Positions 3,698-20,528 of a stretch of 64,000 nt of DNA are shown here, in pieces. Under the pieces are notes generated by a model. The model had not been told where the DNA came from. It saw only the letters and a list, made by a program, of their open reading frames with translations, and did not search any database. How positions within the stretch are numbered: the first letter of the stretch is position 1; each line of letters starts with the position of its first letter. The translations under genes and the position numbers were made by a program. The stretch is from Hoeflea ulvae (GTDB lineage: Bacteria > Pseudomonadota > Alphaproteobacteria > Rhizobiales > Rhizobiaceae), in contig NZ_JAOVZQ010000001.1 of assembly GCF_026619435.1 (NCBI RefSeq), forward strand, positions 3,293,501 to 3,357,500, written 5' to 3'.

Positions 3698-5069
3698 TCA
3701 ACGGCGCGTCCGTCCGTCATATTGCTTGACCGTGTCGCCGCCGAAGATCAGCCGCTGCGGATCCTGCTCGATCGAGGAGATCGACCGCTCGATGCGCTCG
3801 ATCGACCGCCGCGCGTCATTGACCAGCGCCTCGACGTCACGCAGGCCGGAGCCCGAAAAGCGCTGCAGATTGTCCGCGATCGGGCCGATCCCGGCATTGA
3901 GCGAATTGGCGACATCCCGGAACGATTTGAGCGTCGCCTCGGCATCGGCAATCAGCGAGGAGGCATCGCCCTCCCCGAGGAAGCCGTCGAGCTTGGCCAG
4001 AACCCCGTCGACGCGGGTAGACGCCGCATTGAGCGTGCTGGTCATCTGCTTCACATCGGTGATGATGAGATCGTAGTCTTCCTTGCGCGCGCTGAATGTC
4101 TCGGCCACGCCGCGGGCATCGGCCAGCGCCTTGCGCGCATCCGCACTTGCCAGCGCGATGTCATCGACAGCCTGGCCGACCTTGGCCGGATCGATCCCGG
4201 AAATCAGCGTGTCGACCTTGTCGAGCGAGGCGCCGGCATCGGCCGTGAATGTCTCCAGCGATTGGGCGGCATTGCGAAAGCTTTCGAGCGTCTGGGTGAT
4301 GTCGCCCGACGCGTCGGCGATACTGGCTGTGACCTTGTCGACATTGCCGAGAATACGGTCGATTTTCTGTGGATCAACCGCCTTGATCAGGTCTTCCGCC
4401 GAGCCAAGCGCGCTGTCGATTCGGCCCGAGAGCGATTTCACCGTCTCCGACAGGCTTGCCACGCTCCTGAGGAAGTCATCGATGCCGTCGGCATTGTCGC
4501 GCAAGGCGCCGGTGAAGATCTCGGTGTTCTTCAGCGTCTCGGTCAGCGGGCTGCGCGCATCCTTGACGAAGCCTTCCACCTCGCCGATCACCGTATTGGC
4601 CCGGTTGAGAATCTCGTCGGCGGTGGCAAGCAGGTTGGTGACGCTGGACGGATCGGCCTCGATCTCGGCGATCTTCTCCTCGGTCAATGCGCGCAGCAGG
4701 ATATTGTCCTTGGACGGCGTGCCGCCCTGCAGCTCGATATAGGCCGATCCGGTCAGGCCCTGGATCTCCAGCGCCGCACGGGTGTCGGTGTAGATCGGCG
4801 TATTGGCCTGCACCTCGGTCTGCGCAATCACATAGTCGGGATTTTCCGAGATCGACGCTCAGCCGGCGGATCACGCCGTAGGGAATGCCGTTGAACCGCA
4901 CCGGGGATCCGACCGAAAGCCCGTTGGCCGAGCCGGGAATCCGGACGATCAGCTGCGTGGTTTCACCGCCGCCGCCATAGCGCGCCATCCAGTAGACGAA
5001 GCCGAATGCCGAGATCATCACCACAAGGGTGAAGAAACCGACGATGGCGTAATTGGCCCGCGTTTCCAT
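3698..5069 (-). CDS. mlaD: MlaD-family MCE lipid-binding protein, frameshifted
   Basis: The protein starts at ATG 5069 (METRANYAIVGFFTLVVM), with one N-terminal transmembrane helix and then the MCE domain (IPGSANGLSVGSPVRFNGIP). Near 4847-4853 the frame shifts; the continuation reads ENPDYVIAQTEVQANTPIY and GLTGSAYIELQGG. A long helical C-terminal region with repeated coiled-coil segments follows and ends in VKQYDGRTRR. Joined, it is about 456 residues, normal for rhizobial MlaD. It would be the inner-membrane-anchored ring of a phospholipid transporter. The shift fits one extra C in GATCTCG where GATTCG is expected. The start overlaps the mlaF stop by one base. Confidence 0.85.
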
Positions 5070-5953
5070 TACTGCGCTTCGCTCTTCCTGCTGTCCGCCG
5101 GGCTCGATCCCGGATCCTGCTGTGCGTCTGGCTTCCGGGGAGTGCCTGGAATCCGGCGTGCTCTCTTGCCCTGGAAATAGGACTGCACCCAGGGATCGTC
5201 AAATGAAAGCATGTCCTCGATGGTTCCTTCCACCAGAACCTTCTTCTGACCCAGCACGGCGATCCGGTCGCAGACCGAAAACAGGCTGTCGAGATCATGG
5301 GTCACCATGTAGACCGTCAGCCCCAGCGTGTCACGCAACTGCGCGATAAGCTCGTCGAACTCGGCTGCTCCGATCGGATCCAGCCCGGAGGTCGGCTCGT
5401 CCAGAAACACCAGGTCCGGATCGAGCGCCAGCGCCCGTGCCAGCGCCGCCCGCTTGATCATACCACCGGACAGCTCGGAGGGGTATTTGTCGGCCGCATC
5501 CGGCGCCAGGCCGACCATCGCCACCTTGAGCTCCGCCAGTTCGTCCATCAGCGGTTTTGGCAGATCCAGATATTCCCGCATCGGAACCTGGATGTTTTCG
5601 CGCACCGTCAGCGCCGAAAACAGCGCACCCTGCTGGAACAGCACGCCCAGGCGCATGTCGAGTTCGATCTTCTTGGCCTCCCTGACCTTGTCGTAATCCT
5701 CGCCGAGAATCCGGATCACGCCCTTCTGGCGCGGAATCAGCCGCAGGATCGAGCGCATCAGCACCGACTTGCCGGTGCCGGAGCCGCCGACAAATCCGAG
5801 GATTTCCCCGCGATAGACGTCGAGATCGAGATGGTCGAGCACCTTGTTCTTGCCGAAGGCCACGCAGACATCGCGGGCCGACAGGATCACCTCCCGCTCC
5901 GCTTCGGGATCCGGCACCAGTCGTTGCGAATGATTTGGCTCTTGCGGGGTCAT
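5069..5953 (-). CDS. mlaF: MlaF-family ABC transporter ATPase
   Basis: The 294-residue product starts at ATG 5953 (MTPQEPNHSQ). It shows Walker A GGSGTGKS, Q-loop LFQQGALF, signature LSGGM, Walker B LVFLDEPTSGLDP and H-loop MVTHD. The C-terminus is a short Pro/Ser/Arg-rich tail. This is the cytoplasmic ATPase that drives lipid movement by the MlaE permease. The start lies 12 bases before the end of mlaE's stop region and the stop overlaps the mlaD start, so the genes are translationally coupled. Confidence 0.92.
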   Translation of the reverse strand: MTPQEPNHSQRLVPDPEAEREVILSARDVCVAFGKNKVLDHLDLDVYRGEILGFVGGSGTGKSVLMRSILRLIPRQKGVIRILGEDYDKVREAKKIELDMRLGVLFQQGALFSALTVRENIQVPMREYLDLPKPLMDELAELKVAMVGLAPDAADKYPSELSGGMIKRAALARALALDPDLVFLDEPTSGLDPIGAAEFDELIAQLRDTLGLTVYMVTHDLDSLFSVCDRIAVLGQKKVLVEGTIEDMLSFDDPWVQSYFQGKRARRIPGTPRKPDAQQDPGSSPADSRKSEAQ

Positions 5954-5964
5954 GTCGTCCTGTC

Positions 5965-19094: not shown

Positions 19095-19122
19095 AAAACG
19101 CCGGAGTTTCCTCCGGCGTTTT
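19095..19122 (-). terminator. Rho-independent terminator of the DAHP synthase gene
   Basis: A perfect 12-bp stem, AAAACGCCGGAG / CTCCGGCGTTTT, with loop TTTC lies 32 bp beyond the stop. The A run on the plus strand gives a U tract for the minus-strand transcript. Confidence 0.85.
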
Positions 19123-19153
19123 CATACCAATATCAGTCAGGTGCGACCAAAGA

Positions 19154-20528
19154 TCAGCCGTTCACGACAGCCTTTTCCTCGTCGCGGCCGCCCTTCATGC
19201 GTTCGGCGACGAGGAAGGCGAGTTCGAGGGCCTGGTCGGCGTTGAGACGCGGGTCGCAATGGGTGTGGTAGCGATCCTGCAGGTCCTCGCCCGAGAGCGC
19301 GCGGGCGCCGCCGGTGCATTCGGTGACGTTCTTGCCGGTCATCTCGATGTGGATGCCGCCGGGATGGGTGCCCTCGGCGCGGTGGATCTGGAAGAACGAG
19401 ATCCACTTCCGACAGGATCCGCTCGAAGGGACGGGTCTTGTAGTTGTTCATGGTGATGGTGTTGCCATGCATCGGATCGCACGACCACACCACCTTGCGG
19501 CCTTCGCGCTCGACGGCGCGGATCAGCTTGGGCAGATGATCGGCAACCTTGTCGTGACCGAAGCGCGCAATCAGCGTCAGCCGGCCGGCTTCATTGGCCG
19601 GGTTGAGGATGTCGATCAGCGAGAGCAGCTCGTCGGGCTCGAGCGACGGGCCGCATTTGAGACCGATCGGGTTCTTGATGCCGCGGGCATATTCGACATG
19701 GGCATGGTCGAGCTGGCGGGTGCGGTCGCCGATCCAGATCATGTGGCCGGATGTGGCGTAGTGATCGCCCGAGGTCGAATCGATGCGGGTCATGGCTTCT
19801 TCATAGCCAAGCAGCAGCGCTTCATGGCTGGTGAAGAAATCGGTCTCGCGCAGATTGGCGTGGTTGTCGGCGGTGATCCCGATCGCCTTCATGAAATCCA
19901 TGGTCTCGGAAATCCGGTCGGCGAGCTTGCGGTAGCGCTCGGCCTGGGGGCTGTCCTTGATGAAGCCGAGCATCCACTGGTGCACATTGTCGAGATTGGC
20001 ATAACCACCCTGGGCAAAGGCGCGCAGCAGATTGAGCGTGGCCGCCGACTGCCGGTAGGCCATGATCTGGCGTTCCGGATTGGGGATGCGGTCGGCTTCG
20101 TTGAAATCGATGCCGTTGATGATGTCGCCGCGGTAGCTCGGCAGCTCGATGCCGTCCTTGGTCTCGATATTGGACGAGCGCGGCTTGGCGAACTGGCCCG
20201 CAATGCGGCCGATCTTGACCACCGGCTGCTGGGCGCCGAAGGTCAGCACCACGGCCATCTGCAGGAAGACGCGGAAGAAATCACGGATATTGTCGGCCTC
20301 GTGCTCGGCGAAGCTCTCGGCGCAATCGCCGCCCTGAAGCAGAAAGCCCCTGCCTTCGGCGACATCGGCAAGCACCGATGTCAGCCGGCGGGCCTCACCC
20401 GCAAACACAAGCGGGGGAAACTTGGCCAGCCGCGCTTCGGTCACTTTCAGCGCCTCTGCATCGGGATAATCCGGGACCTGCTGGATCGGTTTGTTGCGCC
20501 AGCTCGAAGGGGTCCAGTTCTGTGCCAT
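19154..20528 (-). CDS. aroG: Class II DAHP synthase, frameshifted
   Basis: 3-deoxy-7-phosphoheptulonate synthase, the first step of the shikimate pathway, of the plant-like class II. From ATG 20528 ([11 protein letters not shown]) it shows [11 protein letters not shown], the arginine region [23 protein letters not shown] and WSCDPMHGN. The frame breaks after RILSEVD at 19397-19403 and continues as [32 protein letters not shown], then [19 protein letters not shown]. Joined length is about 457 residues, normal for the family. The shift equals one extra C in GATCTCG in place of GATTCG. As this enzyme is normally essential, a sequencing error is likely. A start three codons earlier (20537) is possible. 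Confidence 0.9.

Follow-up and report, generated by a model that had tools for sequence, protein, structure and literature searches.

Three split genes in the window

The window, a stretch of 64,000 nucleotides (G000:C1:3293501-3357500) of the two-contig, 5.12-Mb Hoeflea ulvae genome (G000), carries three genes on its minus strand whose reading is split over two frames: a gene with an MCE/MlaD domain (mlaD), the gene for glutamine-dependent NAD+ synthase (nadE), and the gene for a class II DAHP synthase. The genes and the word at which each changes frame are as follows, in window positions.

3701..5069, minus strand: MCE/MlaD-domain gene, split over two frames (about 5069-4851 and 4846-3701)
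4847..4853, minus strand: frameshift word GATCTCG in mlaD; relatives readable at this point have Asp-Pro (GATCC or GACCC)
13476..15159, minus strand: nadE (glutamine-dependent NAD+ synthase), split over two frames
13707..13713, minus strand: frameshift word GATCTCG in nadE; GATTCG at nine and GATTCC at one of ten same-genus loci
19157..20537, minus strand: class II DAHP synthase gene, split over two frames
19397..19403, minus strand: frameshift word GATCTCG in the DAHP synthase gene; GATTCG in Hoeflea halophila and in G003

A sequence-only reading of this DNA had placed GATCTCG at these three sites, with a single frameshift in each gene. The word was confirmed at all three, and alignment with the proteins of G003, the nearest relative genome used for comparison (its NadE is 93% identical to that of G000), puts the frame switch at each word. 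In mlaD, for example, residues 1-73 and 75-456 of the G003 protein align in two frames. Family-model searches returned complementary pieces for nadE (profile positions 2-467, then 468-544 of 546) and for the DAHP synthase gene (1-372, then 372-440 of 443), while the matches for mlaD were weak and under the curated cut-offs. The best NadE match was 94% identical (120 of 7995 matches being listed), so that no other assembly of the species was evident among these, and the best named match of the DAHP synthase, in Hoeflea halophila, was 93% identical. No second full copy was found in the genome for nadE, whose sole other match was partial and at 27%, or for mlaD, which gave a single match only.

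The same reading had traced all three words to a shared GATTCG precursor, coding for Asp-Ser. This held for two of the genes. At nadE, all ten same-genus loci code for Asp-Ser, and at the DAHP synthase gene GATTCG is present in the two relatives given above, the other readable named relatives having different codons there. At mlaD it did not hold: nine of 12 relative loci were readable, and all nine code for Asp-Pro (GATCC in eight and GACCC in one), so that the expected word is GATCCG and not GATTCG. Judged from these relatives, the mlaD word was most likely derived from GATCCG, which contains no GANTC site. At a further insertion, 2771992, seven of 13 loci were readable (the insertion's own locus was among the six unreadable ones), with Ser following Asp in five and Ala in two. 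Thus, a GANTC precursor does not underlie every GATCTCG insertion; it fails at mlaD, holds at nadE and the DAHP synthase gene, and is likely at 2771992.

GATCTCG is by no means rare. It occurs 72 times in the window, 3.7 times as often as the 19.4 copies expected from dinucleotide shuffles, so the word alone is not diagnostic. GATTCG is 2.7 times rarer in the window than such shuffles predict; both departures may stem from codon usage or from GANTC being avoided. Intact copies of GATTCG, earlier noted near 19775 and 31184, are indeed present at 19776-19781 and 31182-31187. In 1.264 Mb of G000, GATCTCG occurs 954 times on both strands, and 433 GATTCG and 149 GACTCG sites remain. When these counts are scaled to the coding length that was compared, the error seems by our arithmetic to touch no more than about 1% of GAYTCG sites, and further signal context must therefore matter. 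The nadE error was not recovered at the eight further loci inspected: of 397 genomes, G000 and 17 others contain its pattern, and the loci from eight of these others had no NadE C-terminal word downstream and did not look like NadE.

Frame breaks beyond the window

A 1.264-Mb portion of G000 was compared with 1.2 Mb of the largely collinear G003. Across 792 G003 ORFs (272,429 aa), 52 frame junctions were found, 39 of them internal; 32 of the internal junctions had a single gap (23 insertions and nine deletions), and the seven that showed two or more gap columns were left out. A strict mechanical filter, in which both flanks had to reach at least 78% identity and 39 aa (limits chosen after the flank values had been inspected), retained 25 breaks in G000, i.e. 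16 insertions and nine deletions. In the reverse direction, the same filter gave five breaks over 794 ORFs (273,395 aa), two of which (1998783 and 2129641) mirror G000 deletions already counted. Frame breaks are thus in excess in G000 over its close relative, with 25 strict events against five.

A second set was kept by hand and comprised 16 of the 23 internal single-gap insertions. Dropped from it were 2975411, 3091403, 3437469, 3640462, and 3679865, judged to lie 5' of the true start; 3068616, judged to be a run-on frame; and 3035606, where G003 was taken to be the broken genome. At the G003 counterpart of this last site (L216:2588-3685, against G000:C1:3035606), it is indeed G003 that seems frame-broken, and not G000. 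The two sets of 16 differ in that the strict one lacks 2925037 and 3126071 and adds 2975411 and 3437469. At 2925037, the conserved reading is unbroken in G003 and runs over two frames in G000.

The words that contain the inserted base are concentrated in GATCTCG, CCAGTG, and CCGAGG, and their precursors mostly contain GANTC or CCWGG; the k-mer test took 18 insertion events, two of which were rejected afterwards. GATCTCG is found at five of the 16 strict insertions, as against 0.8% of random 17-base stretches, and a CCWGG precursor, with CCAGTG or CCGAGG as the product, at seven. With mlaD counted, 12 of the 16 are compatible with one base having been added inside GANTC or CCWGG (random insertions, 9.5%; p 6.8e-10). 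The mechanical test scores mlaD as a GANTC fit although its relatives point to GATCCG; with mlaD excluded, 11 of 16 fit (p 1.6e-8). In the alternative sets, the two motifs account for 14 of the 16 hand-kept insertions (mlaD included) and for 14 of all 23 internal ones. At 2843077 and 3649912 the base was inserted directly after an existing GAATC or GATTC, and 2975411 and 3437469 fit neither motif. Deletions are associated with homopolymers: seven of nine are no more than 3 nt away from a run of at least four, compared with 8.4% of random positions. Misfits amount to four strict insertions and two deletions, three of which (2975411, 3437469, and 3496011) look to lie outside genes.

Loss of mismatch repair yields homopolymer indels. 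The homopolymer indels seen here are what would be expected if the breaks were real mutations in, for example, a strain defective in mismatch repair. We nevertheless regard such an origin as very improbable, since most of the insertions are at methylase-like motifs, in words that are not repeats, breaks are few in G003, and nadE would be lost with no second full copy found.

Six of the hand-kept insertions yield GATCTCG, and they lie in six different genes. At 2771990 and 2925033 the word reads on the plus strand, while 3092647 and the three window sites have it on the minus strand; the minus-strand position remarked on earlier for all three broken genes is thus a local feature. One might suppose that GATCTCG directs programmed +1 frameshifting in the mRNA, and in nadE, the DAHP synthase gene, mlaD, and the gene at 2771992 the word does share one phase, GAT CTC G. 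However, at one of the five strict sites (3092650) and at two of the six hand-kept ones (3092650 and 2925037) the word runs antisense to the gene, which argues against a signal in the mRNA. Moreover, the insertion is absent from readable relatives, and the remaining frame breaks use different words. Programmed frameshifting is accordingly scarcely credible.

In the aligned G000/G003 columns, G000 as a whole was not specially depleted of either GANTC or CCWGG. GANTC was present in both genomes at 1342 places, in G000 only at 1066, and in G003 only at 1454; the corresponding figures for CCWGG were 2584, 3398, and 1966. Controls lean the same ways, AT-richer words such as CTNAG (792, 910, and 1236) as well as the GC-rich CCSGG (3830, 4094, and 2726), so motif loss was rejected as the cause of these differences in favor of G+C content.

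Methylases and published nanopore errors

A CcrM gene is present in the genome; its product of 377 aa scores 629.7 bits with the CcrM model, below the 830-bit cut-off, and 718 bits with an orphan methyltransferase model. There is one HsdM-family match among N6 methylases, and no match to the D12 (Dam-like) family was found in the genome. A single C5 cytosine methylase, the only match of its kind, is adjoined by a Vsr endonuclease. It reaches 53 bits with the E. coli Dcm model (cut-off 710) and is thus no clear Dcm orthologue; CCWGG is a possible target. The pair belongs to the following group.

L320:5525-13806 (G000:C1:1606000-1620000): MZA anti-phage genes, namely the C5 methylase and Vsr, then matches to MzaE, MzaD, MzaC, and MzaB

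The MzaB match runs past the edge of the examined stretch, and the MzaD gene (L320:9462-10573) seems to be split in two frames. Elsewhere, G000:C1:778372-779646 holds two partial matches to N6/N4 methylase families, one with four internal stops, and is perhaps a decayed methylase.

Errors at such motifs have been described in the published passages considered here. In the Klebsiella benchmark of Wick et al. (2019), CCAGG/CCTGG and homopolymers dominate nanopore consensus errors (PMC6591954); the main error sites in G000, CCAGG/CCTGG and homopolymer lengths, are the same, whereas the motif errors here are insertions, since only frame breaks were screened, and GANTC is a second motif. SNP errors near GANTC are described for nanopore assemblies of agrobacteria (PMC12710330), and two GANTC-linked errors for Brucella (PMC12392509). 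G000 resembles these cases in having GANTC-associated errors in CcrM-bearing Rhizobiales, but the agrobacterial errors are SNPs, while here a base is added to give GATCTCG. In four mza-bearing Listeria strains, GCWGC is the site of numerous nanopore modification errors (PMC10687267). MZA genes are found here too, beside the only C5 methylase match; the Listeria errors are GCWGC mismatches, and those in G000 are CCWGG insertions. A strand-specific T/C or A/G ambiguity in nanopore reads, with TY/RA as the minimal motif, is also on record (PMC11610573), and the TY ambiguity described there would account for the change of both GATTCG and GATCCG to GATCTCG. Taken together, the parts of these five reports that bear on methylated sites describe mainly substitutions (PMC6591954, PMC12710330, PMC12392509, PMC11610573, and PMC10687267), and no report of this exact GATCTCG insertion was found in the passages considered from the literature on GANTC basecalling errors and Dcm.

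Origin of the frameshifts and consequences

The three frameshifts are very probably not mutations but errors in the consensus of an assembly made from long reads, probably from nanopore reads alone. A systematic sequencing or consensus error, as first proposed from the sequence, is strongly supported by the many breaks in conserved genes of G000, the few in G003, and the nanopore-typical contexts in which they lie. The narrower proposal, that methylation of GANTC by CcrM is the trigger, fits nadE and the DAHP synthase gene, is likely to fit 2771992, and plausibly fits 3092650. It does not fit mlaD or the seven strict insertions at CCWGG, and most deletions are at homopolymers; GANTC alone is too narrow an explanation. 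Methylation as such is the likely trigger, though unproved.

Modified bases (6mA at GANTC through CcrM, and perhaps 5mC at CCWGG) may cause the basecaller to waver between two letters, and we infer that the consensus sometimes retains both; the main text of PMC11610573 does not use the word "insertion", and this step is ours. A pyrimidine between GAT and CG would then become CT, which would account for GATTCG and GATCCG alike, and the A in CCAGG would become GA. It is tempting to go further and suppose that the indel spectrum of a finished assembly, even in the absence of raw signal, reads out the strain's methylome, here GANTC (CcrM) and CCWGG (the MZA-linked C5 methylase), with retention of both letters (Y to CT and R to GA) as the signature; we hold this extension to be doubtful.

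An artefact of the same class could also arise on unmodified DNA, were the basecaller or polisher biased toward frequent words such as GATCTCG. The non-GANTC precursor of mlaD, the high frequency of GATCTCG (954 copies per 1.264 Mb, as given above), and the apparently correct calling of most GANTC sites all speak for such a bias. Against it, each of the two main precursor motifs is a methylase target of a known or widespread kind, and the two occur alongside homopolymer deletions, in line with the relevant passages of PMC6591954 and PMC12710330, and CCAGTG is not similarly enriched, with 410 copies per Mb in G000 and 476 in G003. A bias without methylation is possible, yet we consider it rather unlikely.

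As consensus errors, the frameshifts hold nothing biologically surprising. By our arithmetic, a frame break occurs in G000 about every 33 kb of the coding sequence compared, so that claims of gene loss made from this assembly need checking. A frame break at GATCTCG, CCAGTG, or CCGAGG may serve to flag an unpolished assembly. Left uncorrected, the three genes would be mislisted as pseudogenes, wrongly suggesting a requirement for NAD and for aromatic amino acids, while in the living cell they are most likely intact.
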